From positions 1 through 20,690 of the IMG/VR virus record IMGVR_UViG_3300032083_002753: a DNA stretch of 20,690 nt. One strand, given 5' to 3'. Position 1 is the first letter of the stretch. Each line of letters opens with the position of its first letter. The notes under the pieces are model-generated. The model saw only the letters and a program-made list of their open reading frames with translations. It made no database searches and was not told the DNA's origin. The stretch is from a virus. Positions 960-15,221 of this stretch are shown here, in pieces. A program made the translations under genes and the position numbers.

Positions 960-1166
960 ATGTCAGAGACAAGAAAGATTATCAATTCTCTTATCGAATT
1001 CAGCGATAAGGTGATTTTGCCGGTATTTGAAAAGGTTGCTTTGATTGCTTTGTCGCCCATATACATTTTCTTTGCGGCTGTGATTTGCCTAGGTCCTTTA
1101 GTCTTGCTTTTTTTTGTTTTGTTCAGGTCAGATATCATAATTAAATGGCTAACTTCCGCCTTCTAA
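960..1166 (+). CDS. small membrane protein of unknown function
   Basis: A 68-residue protein with an amphipathic N-terminus (about 1-24) and a long hydrophobic stretch, about residues 25-56, which could span the membrane once or as a tight hairpin. A charged FRSD segment and a short C-terminal tail follow. GGGAG lies six to seven bases before the ATG within the repeated leader. It is the last gene of the plus-strand trio, and its final 18 bases overlap, tail to tail, the end of the large minus-strand protein gene. Size and topology would suit a membrane effector such as a holin-like or exclusion protein, but nothing in the sequence decides this. The antisense frame lacks a ribosome-binding site and is less plausible. 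Confidence 0.6.
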   Translation: MSETRKIINSLIEFSDKVILPVFEKVALIALSPIYIFFAAVICLGPLVLLFFVLFRSDIIIKWLTSAF

Positions 1167-3275
1167 TAGGTCAGCAATGTCCTTTCCTAGAACTCGCCGC
1201 ATATTCTGATTCCTTGCGCTATTAATAAAATCAAAGGCAATATCACCGCTTTGACCCATAGGAACCCAGAGATTCCCGTAAAGCCTAGCCTGTATTCTTG
1301 GAGATGCACCAGCCATTACTAAAGCAGAATTTGCGGTGATTTCCGGCCTTCCAACAAACATACCCCCAAGTCCAAAAGTTGAAGCGTTCTGCAAAAGCCT
1401 TCCCACTTGCCCACTCGCCATCCAGCTATTAATAGTTTCCCGATCCTCAAGAAGCTTTATGGTGTCACCGAGCGCCTTTTTCTCCTCCATGAGCTGTTGC
1501 CGTTTCTGTGTCCGGTAATTCTGAATCAGGCTTCTTTTCTCGGCGTCTTTAATCGAAACATCCTGCCTCTGCTTTTTCACAAGCCCTCTAATGCTGTCTT
1601 CGTTCTTCCTTTTGGCAAGCTTGTAATAAGCAAGGGATTCTGTTCTGACGCGGTCTATATCGTTTAAAGATTCCTTGATTTTAGGCAAGAGTCTGTCTTT
1701 TTCCGGGAGCAGGGCATCGGCTTTCTGCATGGTCTGAAGAGCCGCTTTATCTCCCTTCTGAATGGCTCTGACAGCCTTATCAACGTCAGGAATCAAGGCT
1801 CCGTTCGCGTCTTTCTTAAAAAAGCTGTCAATGGCCTGATTGTATTTAGGCTTCATCTCAGCAAAGGCTTTGTTGGCTTCGGCGAGTTTCGGAAGGGCTT
1901 TTTGTAATTGTGGGTTATCGCTGATTAAATTCGCGGGATTTATCATGCGAGAGATTTCAGCGTAAACCTGCCCAAACTGGTTTGAACCGCTCTTGAACTT
2001 CGTGTTTGCAAGCTCCTGAAGCTGGGTTTTCAGAGTCTGAAGATAAGAAAGTGGGATCTCTCCGGCTTGGCGGTATGACATTAAATCCCCAAAGATCGTC
2101 GAGAATTCTTCAACATCGCTGACGCCAAGCTTTGTTCTCGGATCTATTTTGCTTCCGAAGTTACTGAGACTGATAGGAAGCTGGCCAAGATTCGCTTTTT
2201 CCGTGACCATTTGCCGAATCTTTGGGCCGATGTCTTTATAGGGAATCGCTATAAAAGGATCATCGTCAAGAACGGACTTAATCGCATCACCAACCGCCTT
2301 TCCGCGCTCCTCTTCAATTCCCTTTAAGATCCCAAGGGATTTCTCATAAGATCCGACAAGCTTCTGATTTGCCGTTTCCATCGCGCTCTTTACTGCGGAA
2401 TCACCCTTCTCTTTTAATCCCTGAAGGGTCGTCGCGCCGCCCTGGCGTACACCGGAAAGCGCCTCTCTCTGCGCTTCTCGGATGGTGTTAATAGCAGAAG
2501 TCATCTTTTCACGAGAATCAAAAATCTTGTCATCCCATTGTTGGCGCATAGCCTCGAGGTTTGCCATTCCGGCTTCTTTAGTTTTTTCGATGTCTATGGG
2601 AGGTTCGCCTTTGGGTGGGAGATATTTTTTAGGATCAGCAACAAAATCCTCTGCGAGCTTCTTGTCTCCTGTGCTTAACCGAAGAAGCATCTTTGTTGCC
2701 GATCTCCCAAACCTTCTTCCATAATCCCAAGCCGCTTGAGCCGCAGGGAAAGCAAGCCCGACTGTTGCCCCGGCAAGAGCGCCTTCAGCCGCAGGCTTAA
2801 AGCCCTCACCTATTTTTTCCATAGCTTCAACCGCCGCGAACTGCGCCGCCTCTGACATGCTTTTGAATTGAGCCAGTTTAGGGGCTATCTTTAGTCCTTT
2901 CAGCAAAGCCCCGCCCTGCTCAAATTCAGCGATAATTCCAGGGGTTTCACCGATGGCCTCGTTAATAAAACGTGCAATTTTAGGACTAGTGGAACTCGGG
3001 ACATTTTCAGAGAGATTCATATAAGCTTCTACTGACTGCTTGGGAAGGTTCAGATTGTCTGGAACGCCTACCGCGTCAAGAATCCCAGCAAGCGGGCGAG
3101 AAACGCCTGCCATGCCTCTTGTGAAACCTCTGGCAATGTCAGATCCCGGGCCTTGAATCAAGCTCTCAATAAACTGATTTTGAGGAAATTCAACCTTTAC
3201 CGGCTGAGCCTCTCGATTTTCGTCGATAAACTCAATGCGGTTCTTCGGCGCTTCGTCAATAAATTCAATAGGCAT
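1149..3275 (-). CDS. large internal virion / DNA-ejection protein (P22 gp16-like position)
   Basis: A 708-residue protein, last gene of the late operon. GAGGAG precedes the ATG by about eight bases. The N-terminus carries a tandem motif, IEFIDE at residues 3-8 and 14-19, then Gly/Ala-rich segments (about 45-65 and 160-180) that may touch membranes. Residues about 215-650 are dominated by charged Lys/Glu/Gln helices with coiled-coil character, and the C-terminal 70 residues are again Gly/Ala-rich. No lytic transglycosylase or lysozyme motif is evident. Size, helical content and position (last of a run of three internal-protein-like genes) match the third ejection protein of P22-type phages (gp16, about 600 residues), which is packaged in the capsid and delivered into the cell with the DNA. 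That role is inferred from context and composition. Confidence 0.65.
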   Translation of the reverse strand: MPIEFIDEAPKNRIEFIDENREAQPVKVEFPQNQFIESLIQGPGSDIARGFTRGMAGVSRPLAGILDAVGVPDNLNLPKQSVEAYMNLSENVPSSTSPKIARFINEAIGETPGIIAEFEQGGALLKGLKIAPKLAQFKSMSEAAQFAAVEAMEKIGEGFKPAAEGALAGATVGLAFPAAQAAWDYGRRFGRSATKMLLRLSTGDKKLAEDFVADPKKYLPPKGEPPIDIEKTKEAGMANLEAMRQQWDDKIFDSREKMTSAINTIREAQREALSGVRQGGATTLQGLKEKGDSAVKSAMETANQKLVGSYEKSLGILKGIEEERGKAVGDAIKSVLDDDPFIAIPYKDIGPKIRQMVTEKANLGQLPISLSNFGSKIDPRTKLGVSDVEEFSTIFGDLMSYRQAGEIPLSYLQTLKTQLQELANTKFKSGSNQFGQVYAEISRMINPANLISDNPQLQKALPKLAEANKAFAEMKPKYNQAIDSFFKKDANGALIPDVDKAVRAIQKGDKAALQTMQKADALLPEKDRLLPKIKESLNDIDRVRTESLAYYKLAKRKNEDSIRGLVKKQRQDVSIKDAEKRSLIQNYRTQKRQQLMEEKKALGDTIKLLEDRETINSWMASGQVGRLLQNASTFGLGGMFVGRPEITANSALVMAGASPRIQARLYGNLWVPMGQSGDIAFDFINSARNQNMRRVLGKDIADLLEGGS

Positions 3276-3302
3276 TAAAGTTTACTCCTCACACACCCGT
3301 TA

Positions 3303-3509
3303 TTACCAAAGCCATGAAATTAAGCGAAACAACAAAGTATAGGATAGCCCGTACAGGAAAGTTCTTAATTGCATGTCTTGCCAGCTGGGTTTTCCAGAAA
3401 GTTTTTGATCATCTGCATCAAAGCCGTAGCCTAAAGGCTTTAGGTAGTAATGTTGTGACATTCCTAACAATAAGAATAGAAATGCCGTTATTCCCACTTT
3501 TAATAGCAT
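3303..3509 (-). CDS. small two-helix membrane protein (holin candidate)
   Basis: A 68-residue protein with two hydrophobic segments, about residues 4-17 and 51-68, joined by a polar loop containing YGFDADD and GKPSWQD. AAGGGTGG lies about five bases before the ATG, and the gene fits the gap between two minus-strand structural genes, which favours this frame over the overlapping plus-strand ORF at 3314-3577. Two transmembrane helices in a very short late-operon protein is the usual look of a class II holin, or of a small membrane helper of DNA entry. No endolysin is visible next to it, so the holin reading is only a guess. Confidence 0.55.
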   Translation of the reverse strand: MLLKVGITAFLFLLLGMSQHYYLKPLGYGFDADDQKLSGKPSWQDMQLRTFLYGLSYTLLFRLISWLW

Positions 3510-5727: not shown

Positions 5728-5902
5728 TTTTTAAATCTTTCGTCAGGTTTCCTTGAGCTTTATCAATCTCTGCAATTCTTTTCTCAGCTTGAAAAACTTC
5801 CTTCTTCAATTTTTGAAGCTGTTCTTTTGCGATTTTCCTTTGAGAATCAATGACTTCCATCTGGCGGCGAATCGCGTTTTTTGTCTCTTCTGAAATAGGC
5901 AT
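5720..5902 (-). CDS. small coiled-coil protein in the tail module
   Basis: A 60-residue protein made almost entirely of charged helix: Lys, Glu, Gln and hydrophobic residues recur with heptad-like spacing from about residue 5 to 52. The start shares TAATG with the stop of the fibre-like gene, and GGAG lies about 11 bases upstream. It ends inside the following 87-residue gene. Coupling on both sides suggests the three products work together; a coiled-coil linker, trimerisation element or chaperone for the fibre is plausible. There is no recognised family. Confidence 0.55.
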   Translation of the reverse strand: MPISEETKNAIRRQMEVIDSQRKIAKEQLQKLKKEVFQAEKRIAEIDKAQGNLTKDLKNG

Positions 5903-6744
5903 TAAGCTTTTATCTCCGTAATAGTGATGCTGGACGCTGACACCCCGCCAAACCTTGCCCCGCCATCCCCTCCATTGAATAAGGCTCCTCCGCTACTTCC
6001 CCCGATACGAACCTTGAATGTGGTAGAGCTTGTGGTTCCAGCGCCCATGTAATGCGTGAACTTGATATTGTGTGATTGGTTTGTTGCCCCATAACTCCAC
6101 CCGGAAGCAAGGGCATTGGCCGTGCTGTCTTGAAACAGAGCGGCTATTAGATAAGTGTCCGATCCCGCATTGACAACAACATCTATCTTTAATTTGCTCG
6201 TTGCGCTCGTCGGAGTGATTGAAAGCGACATCACCTGATCGCCCTCCGTGTTCTGCGGTATTGAATTGTCAAAAGGAATAGACGTTGATCCAGCCGAATA
6301 AGTTCCGCTCTGAGTGTTTACAACCTGAAGGACTGATCCGTTAGGAAGGTCTTGAGCGCGGATCGTTTCGAGGGACGGGGCGGCGGAAGCAGCTCCGTCT
6401 CCGGTTTGTGTGTAGAATTTTCTGGTTGTTGTCGTGTTTCCAGCGAGCCTAACAAGATTTGATCCATCATGGTAGAGGGTGTCTCCCAAGGCCCCGCTTG
6501 TAAGGGAAAGATCCGAAACCAGTATCTTGGGCCCCTCGTTCGCCGTCCCATCGTGTTTATGCCCGCTCGTCGAATTCATCATGTCCTGAATGTAGGAATG
6601 AATAATGTCTAACTGAGCTTCGAGGTCTGCGTCCGTAAGAACTTCGCTTCCCCAGTTCTTGGTTCTTACGGAGTCTGAAGGCCAAGCGGCGAAAGCATTA
6701 ACAGGGAGCGAAATAGCAAGGATAAGAGCTAAAATTTTCTTCAT
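5902..6744 (-). CDS. tail-fibre-like protein with Sec signal peptide
   Basis: A 280-residue protein. Residues 1-20 form a textbook signal peptide: MKK, a hydrophobic core (ILALILAISLPV), then NAFAA with an AxA-type cleavage site near residues 19-20. The mature start, WPSDSVRTKNWGSEVLTD, precedes a short helix and a GHKHDG motif (61-66) of the type found in tail fibres. The remainder is Ser/Thr/Gly-rich beta sequence ending in a Gly-rich region (GGDGGARFGG) and ITITEIKA. GGAGG before the ATG and a shared TAATG with the upstream tail gene place it in the late operon. It sits where P22 carries its tail-needle gene (26). A secreted fibre is odd, because virions assemble in the cytoplasm; it may be exported for another purpose, or the signal-like helix may be retained. 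Confidence 0.75.
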   Translation of the reverse strand: MKKILALILAISLPVNAFAAWPSDSVRTKNWGSEVLTDADLEAQLDIIHSYIQDMMNSTSGHKHDGTANEGPKILVSDLSLTSGALGDTLYHDGSNLVRLAGNTTTTRKFYTQTGDGAASAAPSLETIRAQDLPNGSVLQVVNTQSGTYSAGSTSIPFDNSIPQNTEGDQVMSLSITPTSATSKLKIDVVVNAGSDTYLIAALFQDSTANALASGWSYGATNQSHNIKFTHYMGAGTTSSTTFKVRIGGSSGGALFNGGDGGARFGGVSASSITITEIKA

Positions 6745-8597
6745 TAATTTTCCTCCATAACGATAGCGTGAATCTTGATTTTTTTTACCTTCGGTCGGTT
6801 ACTTGTGCCGGAGTTGGTGATCTCAAAATAGAATTTTCTCCCGACGGCCTTATTAGGGAATGATTGCGTGACCACCTTATCCGGAGGAAGGGAAACAAGC
6901 TTGCTTGTATTTATTATGAAGGTTGAATTCAACAAATCACCTTCGGCGCTAAGGTCAAAAACTTTCCCACCAGATATTCTTCCGCTGTCCGCCGCCCAAC
7001 CCAAGCCAAGAGTCCCGGTTGTTCCGTAATACTCTACAGTCACTTTCTTTAGCTTTAGCCGCGCATTATCAATGGGGAATTGCTTCCCCCCAGCCGTCAA
7101 AAAGTCGATGCTGGAAAAATCCTTTGTCCTATACGTCGCTTCCGTCGCGTTTCCCTCGTCTTCTTCTCCGGTTTCAATTTCATAGACCTTATCTTTCCTC
7201 GAAGACGCTACATAAATTTCATTGTTTAATTCGGTGAGAAGCGCGGGGTATCCGAGACTGTCGGCGAGGTCTTCGTTTAATTCTCTTTCGTGCCAGCGTC
7301 CGAATCGGGTGTCATAAACCCAGCATTTATTTGGGTAAGAGACCCCAGATCCAAGTTCGTTATAAATGAAATAATATTTCTTATCTCGATACACGCCAAA
7401 ACATCGTTTTGCAAAATCAACTTTTTCAATCAAGACATCTTTGTTGAACTGGGTAAGCTCTATAAAATTCACCCCATCAAAAAGAAAAATTCCGAGCGTG
7501 GGATATTTGCTCGCAAAAAACACTCCCTCATCCCCTTTCGCGATAGAAGACGGAGCAGAACATCCTCTTCCATTGGCGATAGGACGATAAGCCACATTAG
7601 GAAAATTAAAAAGACTGAAACACCCGAATTCGGTGAAAACCAAATCCTCATCGCCAGACGGAAAGGCCGTCGCAATCCCCTTGGTATCATTCGGGAAATC
7701 AATCGTAAACGCATCATTTGAAGCGCTCCAGGCATTACCAGTGATTGTGATTGTCCACTTATTCCCTAGAGTATGCCCTGTCGTAGCTCCGAAGGTAACC
7801 GTTACACCGTCAGAAAGTGTTTGAGGTGATCCTGTAATGGAAACACCCGAAGTGTAAGCGCCACCGTTTTTCCTCCATTTATAAGTATCAGGCGTTCCTG
7901 TTGCGTCTATTTCTACTTCGTAGACATCTTTTTTTTCTCCTGTATAAGTTCCACCGCTTGTGAGATCGTTCAGGCCGCCCCCGGTAAAAACAGCCGCGCC
8001 CACAGAAGCATTAACCCAGTTCCCTTGCCCTGCCCTTGATCCTGCAACGCGGTTTTTATCGGTGACTCCCCCTTCTTGGATAAGTCTACTTTTATGATGA
8101 TAAATTCTAGCGTAATTCTGAGAAGGGCTTCCTGGAGGCGTTGCGATAGACTGACCGATCTTTTTAAATTTAAGACCGTCTGTCTGGTTCGTAATCCAAA
8201 GTTTTCCACCAGCAGAAACGGCATGCGATAATACAGCCGTCGTAAATGCAGAGGCATCTTCTTGTGAAAGACTAGCTCCGTTAACTTTGACGAGATCCCC
8301 GGCTATAATTCCATAAACCTCGTCAGACGCTCCTTCTTTGTGATATGCCAATAAATCCGGGGCGGCTGAATAAGAAACTCCGCCGTCTGCGATTTCATTA
8401 ATACCCTTTGAGCGGATCATTCCTCCAAGGGATAGGGCATCCCAATTTTTAATTACCCTTGCCTCATTGGCTTTAACGGCTTGATCCTCCCCGATGGTAT
8501 TAACGCCCCCAGCGAAAGAATCAATCAAAAGAACAAGCTCTGTGGGAGGGGCCACATCTAACAAATTCCGGCTTGTGTGAAGATGCGCTTTACTCAT
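6744..8597 (-). CDS. large tail / DNA-stabilisation protein (P22 gp10-like position) with inserted beta-domain
   Basis: A 617-residue beta-rich protein. The opening LIDSFAGGVNT and later W/Y-rich repeats (for example WVYDTRFGRWHERELNED near residue 430) are typical of beta-propeller tail-hub proteins of short-tailed phages, such as P22 gp10 and tail tubular protein B types. Residues about 205-290 look like a separate Ig-like or beta-sandwich insert (DVYEVEIDATGTPDTYKWRK, then TLSDGVTVTFGATTGHTLG), a module I recall from many phage and bacterial proteins. The C-terminal part (about 500-617) is a further beta-domain. Its start shares TGATG with the adaptor stop and follows AAGGGA. It probably plugs the portal-adaptor channel and connects fibres to the tail. 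Confidence 0.7.
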   Translation of the reverse strand: MSKAHLHTSRNLLDVAPPTELVLLIDSFAGGVNTIGEDQAVKANEARVIKNWDALSLGGMIRSKGINEIADGGVSYSAAPDLLAYHKEGASDEVYGIIAGDLVKVNGASLSQEDASAFTTAVLSHAVSAGGKLWITNQTDGLKFKKIGQSIATPPGSPSQNYARIYHHKSRLIQEGGVTDKNRVAGSRAGQGNWVNASVGAAVFTGGGLNDLTSGGTYTGEKKDVYEVEIDATGTPDTYKWRKNGGAYTSGVSITGSPQTLSDGVTVTFGATTGHTLGNKWTITITGNAWSASNDAFTIDFPNDTKGIATAFPSGDEDLVFTEFGCFSLFNFPNVAYRPIANGRGCSAPSSIAKGDEGVFFASKYPTLGIFLFDGVNFIELTQFNKDVLIEKVDFAKRCFGVYRDKKYYFIYNELGSGVSYPNKCWVYDTRFGRWHERELNEDLADSLGYPALLTELNNEIYVASSRKDKVYEIETGEEDEGNATEATYRTKDFSSIDFLTAGGKQFPIDNARLKLKKVTVEYYGTTGTLGLGWAADSGRISGGKVFDLSAEGDLLNSTFIINTSKLVSLPPDKVVTQSFPNKAVGRKFYFEITNSGTSNRPKVKKIKIHAIVMEEN

Positions 8598-9280
8598 CAG
8601 TTCCCTTGAGTATCAACGGTTTCGTTTTCGTATTCGTCGCCTGTGTCCACAAGAGGCATGGGATTATCAACATCTCTTTCGTCAATCTGGTCTTTTGCTT
8701 TCTGGACAAAGGAGGAATACATTGCATCAAATTGCGCGGCAAGCTGGGTCTGGCCGATCTGCAAAAGGAGTTCTCTTGCGGCGTAGTAGCAAGGCCCCTC
8801 CCTGAACTCCTCGGGGAGCAGAGAAACATCGGCATCGGCTGAAAGCTCGGTCGTGGGTTTCTTGATATAGAAAAGCTCGTAGGCTGCCCCGTTTAAAGAC
8901 GTGGGGCCAAGAAGTTTCATCTTCCTCGTTCCTGAAAATTCCCAAACGTAGAACTTGGGAGGAAGATCCGCGTAATTTGTGTAACGCACTCTTTGATTGA
9001 CAGAGATTTCGTTTTTATTGGTAAGAAGGTATTCTGTCCCGCCGATTGTAATAATAAGGGTTTTGGTTTCGAGCCAATCAGCCGGCAGGGATATTTCCTT
9101 ATCCGCAATCGTTCCAGAGGCGTACTCCTTGACGTTCTTTGAATCAAGAGCAAACTGAAGCTCTCCACGATTCAGTTCTTTCTTTCGATCCGCAAGCGGC
9201 CACTGGTCATCCGAGCTTGTGTTCGGATCACCCAATAGACGGCTTAATTTATCTAGCTGATCCGAAAAGGCGAAACTCAT
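8597..9280 (-). CDS. head-tail adaptor protein (P22 gp4-like)
   Basis: A 227-residue protein of the phage adaptor type. The N-terminus (FSDQLDKLSRLLGDPNTSSD) and helix RGELQFALDSKNVKEYA are followed by a beta-rich middle (about 55-140), then a long helical segment (REGPCYYAARELLLQIG, about 158-195) and an acidic tail. This alternation is characteristic of the ring proteins that dock under the portal and close the packaged head. The ATG overlaps the stop of the GT4 gene as ATGA, so translation of this essential-looking gene is probably coupled to the end of the glycan cassette. In P22 the equivalent gene 4 follows the coat gene directly; here eight genes lie between. Confidence 0.7.
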   Translation of the reverse strand: MSFAFSDQLDKLSRLLGDPNTSSDDQWPLADRKKELNRGELQFALDSKNVKEYASGTIADKEISLPADWLETKTLIITIGGTEYLLTNKNEISVNQRVRYTNYADLPPKFYVWEFSGTRKMKLLGPTSLNGAAYELFYIKKPTTELSADADVSLLPEEFREGPCYYAARELLLQIGQTQLAAQFDAMYSSFVQKAKDQIDERDVDNPMPLVDTGDEYENETVDTQGN

Positions 9281-10410
9281 ACAAGAACACTCTCTTTCTT
9301 AAGTTCTCTCGCGTAGGCACTCACCCACAAATGAGCCTTTTTGTCCGCATTGTGATTTTCCAAAACATCTTCATAGGCGTTATGCGCAAGAGCTTCTCTT
9401 TTACGTTTATCTTTAATCAGCCTAGAAATGGCATCTACCCAAGCTTCAGTTGTGTTTTCCACTAAAAGACCGTTCTGTCCATTTGTAATTACTTCTTTAT
9501 AAGGTGATACGTTTGAAGCAATCGTTGCCGCGCCAATGGCCGAATATTCCAAGTATTTAATGCAAGATTTATTCCGATTGAATTCGTTGTCTACGAGAGG
9601 GCAGATCCCGATATCTAAGTTAAGCGTCGAAAGCTTCAAGGGATATACTTCATTGCCGACCCAATGTTCAAATTTATAGCCATGAACGTCTTTAACTGGA
9701 GCCATGATGCGGTCATCTCCAAAAAAGACAATGTCTACATCGTATTTATCCCCGATGATTTTAAGGGCGTCTTTGACCGTCCAAAGATCTTCATAATGGC
9801 TTACGCCCCCCTGCCAGCCGATTCTTACTTTTCGCTTCACAATCTCAATCTTTGGGTAGATGTTTAAATCAATCAGGTTCGGGAGAACGCAGACGTTAGG
9901 ATTAATGACGCTGAAAGTGTCCGCCAAAATCTGAGTCGTTGCCGTTACAAGGTTTGATTTTTTGAACGCGGCGCGGCACATATCCCGGCGGTTAATATTC
10001 TTTTCGATATTAAAATACTCTTCTCCGTCCGGGCCTTTCATGCCGTCCTTCCATACTTCTTCAATCGTGCCGTCTGCCCATTTAAAGGAGTATTCCTTAA
10101 CGCCAATCCATCGATAATACGGATTCAAGGGGGATGTCGAAAAAGGATCGTCATCGTAATCTGAGACAAGCACTTTTCCGGCTTTTTGAACGGAGCGAAC
10201 AAACTTGAACCACTCCTCACTTGAGGGTCTTGGAAGCAAGATCACATCCGCTTCAAGTATCTTCGCCATATTCTCCTCAGAATCGAGCTGATCCCCTAAT
10301 TCGATTAAACGAACGTCTGCCAGTTCATGCTGTGCGATTTTGTTCAATGGCTGAAAAATCCGGTAAAAGTTGCAAGCCTTATCGTCTCTCTCCACCCCTA
10401 AGATACGCAT
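9277..10410 (-). CDS. GT4-family glycosyltransferase (GT-B fold)
   Basis: A 377-residue protein of the group 1 glycosyltransferase type. The N-terminal half begins with MRILGVERDD and contains an acidic SDYDDDPF loop (83-90). The C-terminal half has the nucleotide-sugar site: RIGWQGGVSHYEDL (196-209), VFFGDD (228-233), ICPL (269-272), KSCIKYLEYSAIG (281-293), and GQNGLLVE (311-318), the standard end of the GT4 signature. It should transfer a sugar from a nucleotide donor; donor and acceptor cannot be read from sequence. GGAGG precedes the ATG, which overlaps the NTase-kinase gene by 13 bases, and the stop shares ATGA with the adaptor gene. Position suggests late expression and possible action on virion components or on a cell-surface glycan. 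Confidence 0.85.
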   Translation of the reverse strand: MRILGVERDDKACNFYRIFQPLNKIAQHELADVRLIELGDQLDSEENMAKILEADVILLPRPSSEEWFKFVRSVQKAGKVLVSDYDDDPFSTSPLNPYYRWIGVKEYSFKWADGTIEEVWKDGMKGPDGEEYFNIEKNINRRDMCRAAFKKSNLVTATTQILADTFSVINPNVCVLPNLIDLNIYPKIEIVKRKVRIGWQGGVSHYEDLWTVKDALKIIGDKYDVDIVFFGDDRIMAPVKDVHGYKFEHWVGNEVYPLKLSTLNLDIGICPLVDNEFNRNKSCIKYLEYSAIGAATIASNVSPYKEVITNGQNGLLVENTTEAWVDAISRLIKDKRKREALAHNAYEDVLENHNADKKAHLWVSAYARELKKESVLV

Positions 10411-11390
10411 ACTTCCTCCAGTTCATAATCAAGCTGTCTCATTACTTTTTTCATACTAAAAGCATCATCAAAACCGTAAGGCGATTTATTAGGATATCCC
10501 AAAAGATCGGGCGTTTTCCCGTCTTCTTCTGAGGCGAGCCTCGCCCATCCAAAATCTATCAATTTGATTACCTCGTCCTTAACCATAAGGTTATCAAGTC
10601 TGATATCCCGGTGAACGATGCCTAAAGTTTTAAGCTGTAAAATAATCTCTATTAACTGCTCTTTCCAGTTCTCGGGAAGGTTCTCGGGACGCAAAGATTC
10701 GCCGCAATCATCGGTTTTAAGAGTTGTCTCATCATGGCTGATAATCTTCGGGAAGTTTTCTCCGGAAAGAAGCCTTAAGATACGCGCTTCATTAGCTATG
10801 AGGTCATGGTTCTTGAATCGGTACTGCTTCTTTTCTACTGTTCCGTCTCCTAAAGAGACAATGCTTGTGGCCCCTTTGTGATAAGGATGAAAAGCGCCAA
10901 CTGTCGGATCATCCGGAGCAACCCAGCCAATACTTGATTTCTTGAGCGATTCAAGCAGTTCTTTCGGAGTCGCGGTCCCCAGGTATCTCTCATAGCTGTT
11001 AAATCCCTTATGGTGTACGGCGTGATACGAAAGGGCGACGCGGTGCATGACCGGATTGGGGGTAAAGAATCCTCTTTTGTTCCATTCCCGGCTTTTAAGA
11101 ATCTCTAACTGAAACTCGTAGGGATAATAGTTGTCTCCGACATGGCGAACGTCACAAAGAATATAAGAATCACCTATGGGTATTTTGTGCTGAACCCTTG
11201 GCAGATCGTGGACAATTTCGATCTTATCTCCAAAAACTTCACGAAAATGCTCGAAATCATAGACTAGAAGATCAAGGTCGGAATGGGGACCGACTTTAAC
11301 GTCATATGGAAGATTCTCCCAATTGCGAAGAACGACATATTCAAAGTCGATGTCGTTCAAATAGGAAAAGAATTGAGCTAAGTCACGCAT
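10398..11390 (-). CDS. fusion of nucleotidyltransferase-like and protein-kinase-like domains
   Basis: A 330-residue two-domain protein. Residues 1-150 look like a nucleotidyltransferase fold: YVVLRNWENLP (18-28), HSDLDLLV (36-43) with D38 and D40 as the metal-binding pair, and a possible third acid at D80 (ILCDVRH). Residues about 170-300 carry a full eukaryotic-like kinase set: a glycine turn (GDGT, 181-184), Lys187 or Lys188, Glu201 in helix C, the catalytic loop HRDIRLDN (260-267) and DFG (279-281). Closest thematic relatives are sugar or lipid kinases of surface-polysaccharide systems (WbdD/WaaP type) rather than signalling kinases. AAGGAG lies eight bases before the ATG, and both ends overlap neighbours by 13 bases. 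Probably adds a nucleotide-derived or phosphate group to a glycan or its carrier; the substrate is unknown. Confidence 0.75.
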   Translation of the reverse strand: MRDLAQFFSYLNDIDFEYVVLRNWENLPYDVKVGPHSDLDLLVYDFEHFREVFGDKIEIVHDLPRVQHKIPIGDSYILCDVRHVGDNYYPYEFQLEILKSREWNKRGFFTPNPVMHRVALSYHAVHHKGFNSYERYLGTATPKELLESLKKSSIGWVAPDDPTVGAFHPYHKGATSIVSLGDGTVEKKQYRFKNHDLIANEARILRLLSGENFPKIISHDETTLKTDDCGESLRPENLPENWKEQLIEIILQLKTLGIVHRDIRLDNLMVKDEVIKLIDFGWARLASEEDGKTPDLLGYPNKSPYGFDDAFSMKKVMRQLDYELEEVCVS

Positions 11391-11923
11391 TTTGACCGCT
11401 CCTTTTCCTTGGCTAGGAGTTTTTGAGTTCCTTCAATTCCCCATTGATCGAAGGCTTCCAAGGTATGAATCTTGTGCGGGAACTTATGATGGATGACCTC
11501 AATACCAGCATCATTCATCATCTTTTCATTAAGGTACTTTTCTATAGCGTCAGGATTGGTGAGGTACTGATCGCATTCGTAATACTTGCAAAGCTCGATG
11601 ATCCTCTCCGTCCCTCTCGCCTCTGTCGGGAAATCGTATCTCAGTTTTGCTGTGTCGATTCCTAGAGTGAGACAAAGAGCGCGAATCCACGCTTCATTGA
11701 CTACCGTAAGACGTTCTCCGTTTACATACTTTTTATCCTTGATGTTTTTAAGGCCAGACTGAACCGGCATCGTCCACCACTTCCCAAAGACCTCGGCCCG
11801 GTTCTGATAGCCGTTTTTCTCGAACTGGCAATTGACCATAAGCACAAAGATATCGGCTTTGTTGATCTTGTCCATATAGGCTAACCACGGACAAAAATTA
11901 GGCTGATGCGCGGCTAAAAGCAT
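11378..11923 (-). CDS. WbqC-like protein
   Basis: A 181-residue protein with the N-terminal signature of the WbqC family: AAHQPNFCPWLAYMDKI, then KADIFVLMVNCQFEKNGYQN, then NR (41-42) and a WWTMPV strand. Family members are usually somewhat longer (about 220 residues) and occur in O-antigen and other surface-polysaccharide clusters; their biochemistry is, to my knowledge, poorly defined. The C-terminal part has a Cys/Tyr-rich segment (ELCKYYECDQYL) and ends in a basic helix. AAAGGA lies eight bases upstream of the ATG. It overlaps the deacetylase gene by 26 bases and the NTase-kinase gene by 13. Presence beside GT2, GT4 and NodB-like genes supports a glycan-decorating role. Confidence 0.8.
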   Translation of the reverse strand: MLLAAHQPNFCPWLAYMDKINKADIFVLMVNCQFEKNGYQNRAEVFGKWWTMPVQSGLKNIKDKKYVNGERLTVVNEAWIRALCLTLGIDTAKLRYDFPTEARGTERIIELCKYYECDQYLTNPDAIEKYLNEKMMNDAGIEVIHHKFPHKIHTLEAFDQWGIEGTQKLLAKEKERSKCVT

Positions 11924-12443
11924 TCAATTTTTCCTTTAGAGTTGCAGGCGTAAATCGCCACGGATGGAAATACCATTTGCTGTGGCTTGGGTCGAAGTCT
12001 TCCCGGTCGAGACATTTCCAGCCATCTTTTACATTAACCAACTCAATGCCGTGTTTCTCGCAGATAATAGAGGTTCCAATGTTGTGCCGGTTAAAGGGTG
12101 GAACGAAGATCTTTGTATCAAGAAGCTTGCAAGATACGACAATGCTTAATTCCTGAGCGCTCGGAGCCATTTCGGAATGATCTGCATGTAAAAGCCCGTG
12201 AGATACCGTCTTCCCAGGCAGGTTTTTGTAAAGATGGCACTCGTCCACATCGTAAAACCATTGAAGCGGCTTATCTTTAAAGGGAGCCCCCGGGTAAACA
12301 GAGCCTTGATTGTTCCATTTCCCGAGGATGGAGGCTACAGACCAAAACTCGGCCAAAGGGAACATCTGCATTATGACCTTATGCATCAAATCAAGTTCAA
12401 AAAAATCCGTGTTCGGATTCACATCGTCACAACGAAAAATCAT
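11898..12443 (-). CDS. NodB-like polysaccharide deacetylase, short form
   Basis: A 181-residue protein that carries, in order, the motifs of the carbohydrate esterase 4 (NodB) fold: FRCDDVN with the Asp pair at 6-7; SHGLLHADHS (81-90), matching the HxxxH metal motif with H82 and H86; FVPPFNRHN (113-121), in the place of the RxPY groove motif; and KWYFHPWRF with H160 as the likely final catalytic His. Active members use the metal to remove N- or O-acetyl groups from sugars. The length is at the short end for the fold, so it may be a minimal catalytic domain. It starts in an ATGA overlap with the 61-residue gene. The substrate could be the sugar added by the neighbouring transferases. Confidence 0.7.
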   Translation of the reverse strand: MIFRCDDVNPNTDFFELDLMHKVIMQMFPLAEFWSVASILGKWNNQGSVYPGAPFKDKPLQWFYDVDECHLYKNLPGKTVSHGLLHADHSEMAPSAQELSIVVSCKLLDTKIFVPPFNRHNIGTSIICEKHGIELVNVKDGWKCLDREDFDPSHSKWYFHPWRFTPATLKEKLNAFSRASA

Positions 12444-12625
12444 TTAATCCTAACCTTTACCTTCTCAACCTGGTCATTTCCGATAGGAACAAGGCGAATG
12501 TCGTAACAATCCTCTTCGCTCCAAGCGATATGCTTATCCGGATTGACCACATAGACCTTATCTTTCTCAATCGATAAGTCCTTTTTGATTTCGTAATCCT
12601 TCAATTCTGTTTTTTTCTTAGGCAT
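12440..12625 (-). CDS. 61-aa basic protein in the glycan cassette
   Basis: A 61-residue protein with no recognised family. It is Lys/Glu/Asp-rich (begins MPKKKTELKDYEIKK), with a short beta-like centre (KVYVVNPDKH) and a basic end. A perfect GGAGGT six to seven bases before the ATG and overlaps on both sides (eight bases with GT2, ATGA with the deacetylase) show it is translated as part of the cassette. It may be a small partner or carrier subunit, or a small virion protein; nothing decides this. Confidence 0.6.
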   Translation of the reverse strand: MPKKKTELKDYEIKKDLSIEKDKVYVVNPDKHIAWSEEDCYDIRLVPIGNDQVEKVKVRIK

Positions 12626-13334
12626 TCTTTACCTCCGGATTCCAAGCAATCGGCCTGCCGACTTCCGCCGAATAAACCGCGTGCTCGATTGATTTAATGT
12701 GTAACGGGTGATGCCCCGACCAATGGCCGATATCTTCAAAAGTGACTTTATCCGTCCAGCCTATCTTCGGGTCTTTCTCGATGACAATCTGATTCAGGAT
12801 ATGAAATGCCCCGGTGATTCCGGATACATCCACCTGCTCAAAGTAAATTCCATCGATCATATTCTTTTTCATCGTCCAGACCCCGCCAACGATCTCGGAC
12901 GGGATGAAATCGCCCTCTTTTCGGCTTAGATCACCGTGTTTAAAAGCGGCGTTTGAAGGAGTAACGTTCGGGCTAATGATGTCGGCATTGGATGTTTCTA
13001 GGATAGAGAGGAGGTCGTTCATCCAGTTTTTAGAGACGATGCAGTCGCTGTCCACTTTAGAGATGTAATCAATTCCGAATTCTTTATCGAGGTCTTTCAC
13101 CCAGGAAATGAAGTCAATAATGACCTTTCTCAGGCCTTTGTTTTCCTGGAATACGAAGTGAGCGGAAATCCCTGATTGTTCAATAATCTCTCTCGTTCCA
13201 TCATTTGAGCCGTCATCAACGATATAAAAATAAACGCGGCTTCCGTAATCCTGGGCCAACTTGATGGCCTCAAGGCAAAGCTTCGTGTATTCCGGTCTTT
13301 TATAGCAAGGAACTAGAACCGCGACGGATTTCAT
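12618..13334 (-). CDS. GT2-family glycosyltransferase (GT-A fold)
   Basis: A 238-residue inverting-type family 2 glycosyltransferase. The start SVAVLVPCYKRPEYTKLCLE is the usual first strand and helix. IVDDGSNDGT (38-47) binds the nucleotide, VDSD (94-97) is the metal-binding DxD, and FEDIGHWSGHH (199-209) supplies the ED catalytic-base motif and His-rich end. No transmembrane segment is present, so it should be soluble or peripheral. AAAGGAG precedes the ATG, which overlaps the preceding gene by 35 bases. It is the first recognisable enzyme of the glycan cassette. Donor, acceptor and linkage are not predictable from sequence alone. Confidence 0.88.
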   Translation of the reverse strand: MKSVAVLVPCYKRPEYTKLCLEAIKLAQDYGSRVYFYIVDDGSNDGTREIIEQSGISAHFVFQENKGLRKVIIDFISWVKDLDKEFGIDYISKVDSDCIVSKNWMNDLLSILETSNADIISPNVTPSNAAFKHGDLSRKEGDFIPSEIVGGVWTMKKNMIDGIYFEQVDVSGITGAFHILNQIVIEKDPKIGWTDKVTFEDIGHWSGHHPLHIKSIEHAVYSAEVGRPIAWNPEVKNA

Positions 13335-13776
13335 CTAGGGCTCCTTTCGCTTCTTTGACCGCATCTGCAAGGACATTAAATTCTTCCTCAGTAAACTCCA
13401 GCCGAATGTCTCTGACTTTAAAATGGATGTAAAATTCGTCTTTGAGGTCTGCGCCTTCTGAAAATATTTTCCCTTCATTCGGGACATAGAGATTCTTATT
13501 AAGATTGATCTTTAACCCTTCATCCACCGGGAAACGGGCAACGTCTTTACGGCAAAGCTCCGAATGCTTCCCGACAGGCTGGCCCTTTTTCATCCACCGA
13601 GCGAAAGCATCAGCAAAGCCTTTCCCCATACTCAGCCAATCCTGGAAATTTAAATTAATGCGAAGATTCCTATAGTGAAAATGGAACGTCTCACAGCTTT
13701 CAACAACAAATCGGTTGTTAAAGATTGCCTTCGGAGGCAACGGGCGCTCCGCCAAGGTTTGTATTGTCTGTCCCAT
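13300..13776 (-). CDS. unknown protein with duplicated His/Arg motif
   Basis: A 158-residue protein that I cannot assign to a family. Two segments look like copies of one motif: FHFHYRNLRINLNF (31-44) and FYIHFKVRDIRLEF (115-128), each followed by a helix rich in Ala, Phe and acidic residues. His34/His118 and Arg39/Arg125 line up apart from a two-residue shift. The middle (about 62-110) has basic and Asn-rich sequence. The start overlaps the upstream gene by 59 bases, but GGGTGGTGG lies before the ATG and no better downstream start exists. As it sits just before GT2 it may bind the acceptor or glycan, or be a capsid accessory. Confidence 0.65.
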   Translation of the reverse strand: MGQTIQTLAERPLPPKAIFNNRFVVESCETFHFHYRNLRINLNFQDWLSMGKGFADAFARWMKKGQPVGKHSELCRKDVARFPVDEGLKINLNKNLYVPNEGKIFSEGADLKDEFYIHFKVRDIRLEFTEEEFNVLADAVKEAKGALDEIRRGSSSLL

Positions 13777-14272
13777 AACGCACCACCACCCTTTTCTTTG
13801 ATTCTTTTAAAATCCGGTTCTTGATTGCCTGCTGAAGCTTCACGATCTTTAACTTGTCACCTTCAATGATCATCTTTTTAATACGCTTCCAATACCGACT
13901 ATTTTCATTCGACCAAATGTCTTTCCCCACTCCAATGAAAGGCCCTATGATATTTCGCATCATGTTGTAAAACGTAGGAGATACGTTAAAATCCCACTTA
14001 AAATCTTTATTCGGACTCCAACCGTAGGTTCCAGTAAAAGTCCCCTTTTTTGTCACGGTTTCAATAAACTTCTTGTCCTGGTAATATCTTTGCCTCTCGT
14101 TTTCCATGATCTGCGGCAAATGCTCTACAAGCAATAAAGCTTTGTGAATCCAAACGCTCATTACAAGGTCTGCAAGGGCGTTAGGGCCGCGCAGTTTCGC
14201 ACCGCCTCCCATTACTCTTGGAGTAGCGTTTAGAATCGCCTGATAAGTAATCTGCTCATCGAATGTATTCAT
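13718..14272 (-). CDS. unknown protein following the capsid gene
   Basis: A 184-residue protein with no recognised family. It begins with a helical segment (FDEQITYQAILN), has a Gly-rich turn (VMGGGAKLRGP, 20-30), a hydrophobic helix (LADLVMSVWIHKALLLVEHL, about 33-52), an aromatic middle (TYGWSPNKDFKWDFNVSPTF), and a very basic helix (KKMIIEGDKLKIVKLQQAIK) near the C-terminus. It starts 40 bases after the major capsid gene, with only a weak GCGGG ribosome site, so it may rely on reinitiation. A head-completion, decoration or DNA-contacting role would suit position and basic charge, but this is a guess. Confidence 0.55.
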   Translation of the reverse strand: MNTFDEQITYQAILNATPRVMGGGAKLRGPNALADLVMSVWIHKALLLVEHLPQIMENERQRYYQDKKFIETVTKKGTFTGTYGWSPNKDFKWDFNVSPTFYNMMRNIIGPFIGVGKDIWSNENSRYWKRIKKMIIEGDKLKIVKLQQAIKNRILKESKKRVVVRYGTDNTNLGGAPVASEGNL

Positions 14273-14312: not shown

Positions 14313-15221
14313 TTAACTTACCGTTCCAGAAGTCTTCACGCCGGAAATCTTACCGTGCGCCTTCTGGTTACCCCATTCAAGGGTCATTTCAGCCTCAACC
14401 CAACCGCGAATTGCGGAATTGGTCTGCGCCCCTTTGAATTGCTCAATGTCACGGAGAACCGCAACACGGATCATATCTGGAGTAACAATATGAATCTTCT
14501 CGGGACGGATGAAGTGATCGGGAACAATATCAAGCGTTCCAAAGCTACCTTCGTACTTGTTGATATTAGAGATCATCATCCGAGCTGACTGGTTAATCTG
14601 GAAAGAAAAACCCGTCTTCGCCGAGAAGGTTTCAGAAACCTGCCGCTTCGACTGACCACCGCAGAACATCACTCGGGGATCTCCGCCTTCGTTCCAAATC
14701 TTCTGAAGGATTCGGGAAACGTGCGATTCCTGAAGGAAGGTGGAAACACCAGCCTTGGAAACAACGTTTGTGGTGATAGCCTTAGAAAGACCCTTTGAGA
14801 CGCGAGCAACAGCTGAGGTACCAGCGGCAGAGTTAGCCGTAGACTGTATGATTTTCTCATAGTCCGTGGTCAACTCTTTCAGGGCCTTCATGATTTCCCG
14901 GGCTACGTCATTTCTCACGCCAGCCGTGGTAACAGCCTGCTGAGTAAACGACACATCCCAAGGGCGAAGTCGAATCTGGCAGTAATTCTGCCGACGAGTA
15001 CGGACTTTACGCTTTGCGTAAGAAACCGTCGCGCCTTCAACAACGCCCGCTTTGCTTGCAGAGGCAAGAGAGTCTTCCTGCCATTCGTGCTTGGTGGAAA
15101 TGGCTTTTACTTTACGAGCCATACCGAACATAGGTGCAGAGTCAACGAACAAATCAGCAATCGTGTCCGTCAAACCTTCCCTATTTCCTACTGTGTTATA
15201 CGTATCCTGTCTCGATGACAT
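14313..15221 (-). CDS. major capsid protein (DUF5309 / SU10-type)
   Basis: A 302-residue protein whose N-terminus, YNTVGNREGLTDTIADLF then MFGMARKVKA and HEWQEDSLA, matches what I know of DUF5309 coat proteins, a family with the HK97 fold that includes the SU10 coat protein. Later hallmarks are an RTRRQNYCQIRLRPWDVS strand (75-92), a long helix (NDVAREIMKALKELTTDYEK), and a C-terminal beta-region ending AEMTLEWGNQKAHGKISGV. It follows the acidic scaffold-like gene by 11 bases, in the normal coat position after terminase, portal and scaffold. GAGGAG lies seven bases from the ATG, partly in a hairpin loop, which fits strong, regulated translation. It builds the icosahedral shell. Confidence 0.85.
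   Translation of the reverse strand: MSSRQDTYNTVGNREGLTDTIADLFVDSAPMFGMARKVKAISTKHEWQEDSLASASKAGVVEGATVSYAKRKVRTRRQNYCQIRLRPWDVSFTQQAVTTAGVRNDVAREIMKALKELTTDYEKIIQSTANSAAGTSAVARVSKGLSKAITTNVVSKAGVSTFLQESHVSRILQKIWNEGGDPRVMFCGGQSKRQVSETFSAKTGFSFQINQSARMMISNINKYEGSFGTLDIVPDHFIRPEKIHIVTPDMIRVAVLRDIEQFKGAQTNSAIRGWVEAEMTLEWGNQKAHGKISGVKTSGTVS

Follow-up and report, generated by a model that had tools for sequence, protein, structure and literature searches.

Why genes for glycan enzymes should lie between the capsid and adaptor genes of a virus is the question raised by IMG/VR virus record IMGVR_UViG_3300032083_002753, a 20,690-base stretch of DNA that was analysed whole and is called the window here. 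Its head module, which an earlier note had compared with a P22-type coat and adaptor pair, is instead of SU10 type, with a capsid protein (SU10_MCP, minus strand, 14313..15221; PF17236, E 4.3e-67) at the left border of the junction, an adaptor (SU10_adaptor, minus strand, 8597..9280; PF24175, E 2.7e-12) at the right border, and also a portal and a large terminase. Between these borders, all on the minus strand, are g13718 (13718..14272), a fast-evolving gene whose label implies no function and which is at the same place in all relatives, and a chain of seven genes: a double-motif protein (13300..13776) in which an HxHYRNLR / IHxKxRDLRLE unit occurs twice; a soluble GT2 glycosyltransferase (12618..13334; PF00535, E 4.2e-15); a 61-aa ORF (12440..12625); a NodB-like (DUF2334-like) predicted sugar deacetylase (11898..12443); a WbqC-like protein (11378..11923; PF08889, E 2.7e-22); a fusion of a nucleotidyltransferase-like domain to a protein-kinase/APH/LPS-kinase-like domain, hereafter NTase-kinase (10398..11390; PF00069, E 4.7e-8); and a GT4 glycosyltransferase (9277..10410; PF00534, E 9.9e-12). 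From GT4 to the double-motif gene, successive overlaps are 13, 13, 26, 4, 8 and 35 bases; the GT4 stop and the adaptor start share four bases (ATGA), and g13718 and the double-motif gene have 59 bases in common. The ORF coordinates thus bear out what the earlier note had described, namely seven genes on this strand overlapping by 4-35 bases, the shared ATGA, and one further gene at the junction, which is g13718. A promoter scan of the junction gave no matches above those in shuffled sequence. Clear transmembrane segments are absent from every cassette protein, the highest transmembrane value of any family being 1.61, in a double-motif family ORF, with ORF starts taken as predicted and not curated.

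Relatives were found in IMG/VR with the capsid protein sequence and with one alignment each for capsid protein, NTase-kinase and double-motif protein. As a lone sequence the NTase-kinase retrieved nothing, and its alignment did find relatives. The order capsid, g13718, double-motif, GT2, WbqC, NTase-kinase, GT4, adaptor recurs in all 14 distinct contigs that span the junction, which measures 5.5-8.3 kb in them vs 5.0 kb in the window, and a later scan added two more (L103 and L104). The gene set is therefore not a chance assembly, since 16 other contigs, every relative that spans the junction, share its core and the order of the core genes; the earlier note had suggested this comparison with related phages as a check. 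The enzyme list itself needed revision: the core is constant in order, the NodB-like gene is exchangeable and the 61-aa gene occurs in the window alone, no homologue of it having turned up in any fetched contig. All 16 loci recovered with the NTase-kinase alignment fall in the window's clade and include GT4, and the adaptor lies downstream of it wherever the contig extends far enough, and none places the NTase-kinase at an unrelated site, an arrangement that would have told against a tie to the head genes.

The core is diverging at about the rate of the capsid genes. Over 15 phages, mean pairwise identity is 0.61 for the capsid protein, 0.58 for the nozzle, 0.57 for the NTase-kinase, 0.55 for the double-motif protein and 0.54 for GT4, followed by lower values for the portal (0.51), GT2 (0.51), the adaptor (0.48) and WbqC (0.47). 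Mantel correlations with combined portal, MCP and nozzle distances are as high for GT4 (r 0.91) and the NTase-kinase (0.90) as for the scaffold (0.91) and adaptor (0.90); the double-motif protein (0.77), GT2 (0.73) and WbqC (0.63) score lower. GT2 and WbqC, the enzymes that fit worst, are the borders of an interval of variable content described below, as would be expected if that interval recombines within its borders. A partial test for distance linked to the module in this interval was significant for GT2, the double-motif protein and GT4, and not for WbqC.

Linkage of GT4 to SU10-type capsid genes extends far beyond this clade. An alignment scan returned 49 GT4 loci, among which 27 distant relatives (25-38% identity to the window copy; 23 clusters at 80% identity) were picked by sequence alone, without regard to context. 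An SU10-type MCP gene lies upstream on the same strand, within 0.4-4.9 kb, in 23 of these 27, and about 7 kb upstream in two more (L109 and L111), which brings the total to 25. Only two distant relatives place GT4 at an unrelated site, and one of these, L131, has GT4 at a contig end with a capsid gene near the opposite end, which leaves L135 as the only distant locus that has no SU10-type capsid gene. Among ten loci tested with Pfam (nine distant loci and Podoviridae sp. ctQWt234), the gene after GT4 encodes an SU10 adaptor in eight, a methyltransferase in one and an unknown protein in one. Three loci (L118, L132 and L133) are minimal, consisting of MCP, a small gene, GT4 and adaptor with no other large genes. 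The make-up of the collection does not account for this linkage, because WbqC loci there rarely have an SU10-type MCP. WbqC was tried as a capsid-linked marker and set aside: they are common in IMG/VR contigs that do not come from SU10-type phages (WbqC-like genes of L151-L214), and among these last 64 WbqC loci only three have an SU10-type MCP, all three with the rest of the core.

Linkage of phage glycosyltransferases to virion genes, a feature of virion glycosylation systems, is thus found here, and the junction is probably a virion glycosylation locus that is co-transcribed and co-translated with the capsid genes. The main rival reading is that the enzymes modify the host envelope (lipopolysaccharide, capsule or teichoic acid), late in infection or in lysogens, so that superinfection is blocked or new virions are kept from sticking to debris. 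Loci for surface polysaccharides typically contain glycosyltransferases, WbqC, deacetylases and LPS-kinase-like domains, some kinase members weakly match lipopolysaccharide kinases (WaaY, Kdo), one relative carries an integrase and looks temperate, and phage GT9 genes have been interpreted in this way in a groundwater virome (PMC10980836); moreover, a late enzyme acting on the envelope or on released lipopolysaccharide could show the same inheritance. However, the cassette has no membrane glycosyltransferase, flippase or polymerase, its GT4 stays tightly linked to the genes for capsid and adaptor even among very distantly related phages, and expression from a prophage is not expected of its place in the late structural operon, so that envelope modification, with either benefit, seems unlikely. 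Because the core holds the junction in all 16 spanning relatives and location at unrelated sites is almost unseen, virion modification appears the better reading; capsid-linked inheritance, soluble enzymes, the minimal form with GT4 alone and comparable cassettes at this position in other phages also favour it. The capsid linkage of GT4 is circumstantial evidence for a role in the virion. Of the late virion-sugar system proposed in the earlier note, placement and linkage have thus gained evidence, and the glycan and its acceptor are still a matter of deduction.

The same enzymes could in principle serve DNA hypermodification, in which glycosyltransferases glycosylate hydroxymethylated phage bases and the other enzymes elaborate the sugar, since DNA is a known substrate of phage glycosyltransferases (Pyle et al. 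2024, cited by PMC12619734). Yet thymidylate synthase/hydroxymethylase was detected in none of 11 relatives' records, several of them fragments (the control was positive in nine genomes), and the late structural position adjoining the capsid gene likewise makes this alternative very unlikely. A search of the 11 records for Tet/JBP dioxygenases, run without a positive control, gave no match.

Between GT2 (left border) and WbqC (right border) lies a slot whose contents are exchanged among relatives. It holds the NodB-like deacetylase in the window and in seven relatives (L011, L013, L015, L021, L051, L053 and L058), and a Rossmann-hexapeptide protein, fused or split, in six others (L016, L018, L019, L022, L023 and L026); the two modules occur together in none of the examined contigs. 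In L020 the hexapeptide gene follows GT4 and the slot holds a PIG-L deacetylase, an enzyme found in L008/L020, L022 and L046. Methyltransferases accompany many loci of both slot types, some of them outside the slot. A phylogeny of portal, MCP and nozzle implies two or more switches of module type, with L022 (hexapeptide and PIG-L) nested in a NodB group. An HNH endonuclease-like gene within one slot (L026:8654-9100) is possibly a mobile element that aids slot exchange. This gene and the variable slot contents would also suit an island of chance cargo, a hot spot for unrelated morons with no functional tie to the virion, but a core whose order never varies and which is as conserved as the portal, along with retention of GT4 at the junction in distant phages, renders that explanation highly improbable.

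The WbqC-like protein matches PF08889 with 80.1 bits against a cut-off of 21.3, and the GT2 protein weakly matches a GtrB-like PHROG (E 1.6e-4). None of the window's NodB-like, 61-aa, double-motif and g13718 proteins has a significant Pfam match. Members of the NodB-like family match DUF2334/Polysacc_deac_1 (PF10096/PF01522) weakly, the best with E 5e-4, and their alignment has invariant D6, D7, H82 and H86 (D-D ... H-x3-H motifs, numbered by the first row of the alignment). In 15 NTase-kinase sequences, D38, D40 and D80 of the nucleotidyltransferase-like part and K187, E201, H260-x-D262, N267 and DFG 279-281 of the kinase part are invariant; two family members match NTP_transf_5, single members match WaaY and Kdo kinases weakly, and the AF2 model matches kinases by Foldseek. 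The double-motif protein is present in all 14 of the first set of spanning relatives, with 38 residues invariant across 15 sequences. Its AF2 model is confident (pLDDT 85, pTM 0.74) and Foldseek found no match to it in PDB or BFVD at E<=0.4; the predicted fold is apparently new. PDB profile searches with the double-motif, NodB-like and g13718 families returned nothing useful, and none of 50,697 GenBank phages gave a tblastn match to the NTase-kinase, double-motif or NodB-like protein. HMM matches to g13718 occur in 28 ORFs of the fetched loci, with 17-42% identity to the window copy.

From this gene content we infer an acceptor, a sugar, an order of reactions, roles for the tailoring enzymes and a benefit to the phage. 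Soluble glycosyltransferases would draw on host nucleotide sugars in the cytoplasm. GT4, which in the minimal relatives is the sole sugar enzyme, is the candidate attachment enzyme and would put the first sugar on a protein of the virion; the neighbouring MCP is the likeliest acceptor, and the adaptor, a tail protein or g13718 could take its place. GT2 would add a second sugar, and the slot enzymes would then alter the glycan: in the window the NodB-like deacetylase may free an amino group, and in relatives the tailoring would fall to the acyltransferase-like Rossmann-hexapeptide protein, the PIG-L deacetylase and methyltransferases. Amide- or phosphate-linked substituents are probably the contribution of WbqC and the NTase-kinase, and the double-motif protein, a core component that is not a glycosyltransferase, is perhaps an acceptor-binding or scaffold protein. 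Replacement of the slot by recombination would change the surface chemistry of the virion and leave the attachment machinery constant. O-antigen and capsule loci similarly have fixed glycan-assembly genes around exchangeable tailoring enzymes, and the cassette resembles them in its fixed flanks and variable centre; unlike them, it has no flippase, polymerase or membrane anchor enzymes that we could see, and it sits in a virion operon.

Most of the GenBank phages with an SU10-type MCP that were sampled have no cassette at the junction and hold one or a few small genes there (HTVC106P, Venkman, ct2t2046, Ss1, MJing1, ctnlZ23, ctXG6705, ctyzp037, ctjtQ328, C75C1 and phiGT1); one junction gene of ctyzp037 is annotated as a putative glycosyltransferase, and in ctKR88 the capsid gene is followed there by numerous glycosyltransferase and methyltransferase genes. 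A close parallel is Podoviridae sp. ctQWt234 (GenBank MW202801, Manatee Spring), in which, as in the window, the capsid gene is followed by a small gene and by glycan enzymes that include NodB, and a homologous GT4 directly precedes an SU10-type adaptor. In contrast to the window, its capsid protein falls outside the window's clade and is related to the Bacillus phage Page group, and radical-SAM and PhyH genes are present in the set before the adaptor (radical-SAM, GT, PhyH, methyltransferase, NodB, GT4); profiles of WbqC, the NTase-kinase and the double-motif protein had no match in this phage. Two contigs with a different capsid protein, L042 and L043, have GT9-like and methyltransferase genes after the capsid gene, joined in L043 by TylF, GT8-like and DUF2334 genes. 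Both also encode distant, fused double-motif proteins after the capsid gene (L042:10001-10849 and L043:9604-10347), with an extra C-terminal part that resembles ParB/sulfiredoxin by eye and has no Pfam match.

Glycans on capsid and tail-tube proteins of the mycobacteriophages Che8 and Rita have been tied to phage glycosyltransferases (Freeman et al. 2023, as cited in PMC12619734 and PMC11256854), and glycosyltransferase plus methyltransferase genes have been taken elsewhere as a sign of virion glycosylation (PMC13313380). Virion glycosylation is thus known in kind; the place at the junction, the enzyme set and the modular layout are new. In the mycobacteriophage Maravista (cluster F1), glycosyltransferases are near the 3' end of the genome and not, as in the window, at the capsid/adaptor junction, and these cited texts do not describe an exchange slot, WbqC, an NTase-kinase or a double-motif protein in the mycobacteriophage system. 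The Gtr serotype-conversion systems of temperate phages share a phage-borne GT2 glycosyltransferase with the window, whereas their GtrA flippase and membrane-anchored glycosyltransferases are absent from the cassette as judged by Pfam matches and transmembrane prediction. Literature on WbqC function and on capsid-adjacent sugar cassettes yielded no direct precedent.

Sugar enzymes of environmental phages are often interpreted as host-metabolism or lipopolysaccharide genes (e.g. PMC10980836). A GT4 that keeps its place next to capsid genes in distant phages directs attention to the particle and singles out the enzyme, and the MCP-GT4-adaptor arrangement offers a simple minimal case. A broader proposal, which we hold with middling confidence, is that many SU10-type podoviruses attach a virion glycan with a capsid-linked GT4, and that the window's clade has added fixed flanks, an exchangeable tailoring slot and a double-motif protein whose fold is apparently new and which is found again next to the capsid gene in a second type of phage. 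If so, sugar coats of swappable chemistry would be widespread on the virions of environmental SU10-type podoviruses, with effects on adsorption, persistence and avoidance of binding to debris.

Several minor observations were made in the same contigs. At least part of the clade appears to be temperate: a near-full-length relative encodes an integrase (L068:2906-3982), and a pooled scan of two relatives gave a repressor family match. Two clade contigs (L057 and L058) are binned in Nitrososphaeraceae and Parcubacteria MAGs, possibly through binning errors. A protein with the same double HLHYRNLR motif is encoded in a Poribacteria MAG (L059, ~3012-3400), where no clear glycan locus was seen among its neighbours, which do not indicate a function. 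The window also encodes, after the tail genes, a 708-aa protein (1149-3275, minus strand) that has no relative in the fetched contigs and no PHROG match. A tail-side protein (5902-6744, minus strand) has an N-terminal Sec-type signal peptide (MKKILALILAISLPVNAFA, followed by AWPSD...); most of its relatives begin at MA(W/Y/F)PSD, the apparent cleavage point, and the L024 version also has a signal-like extension.
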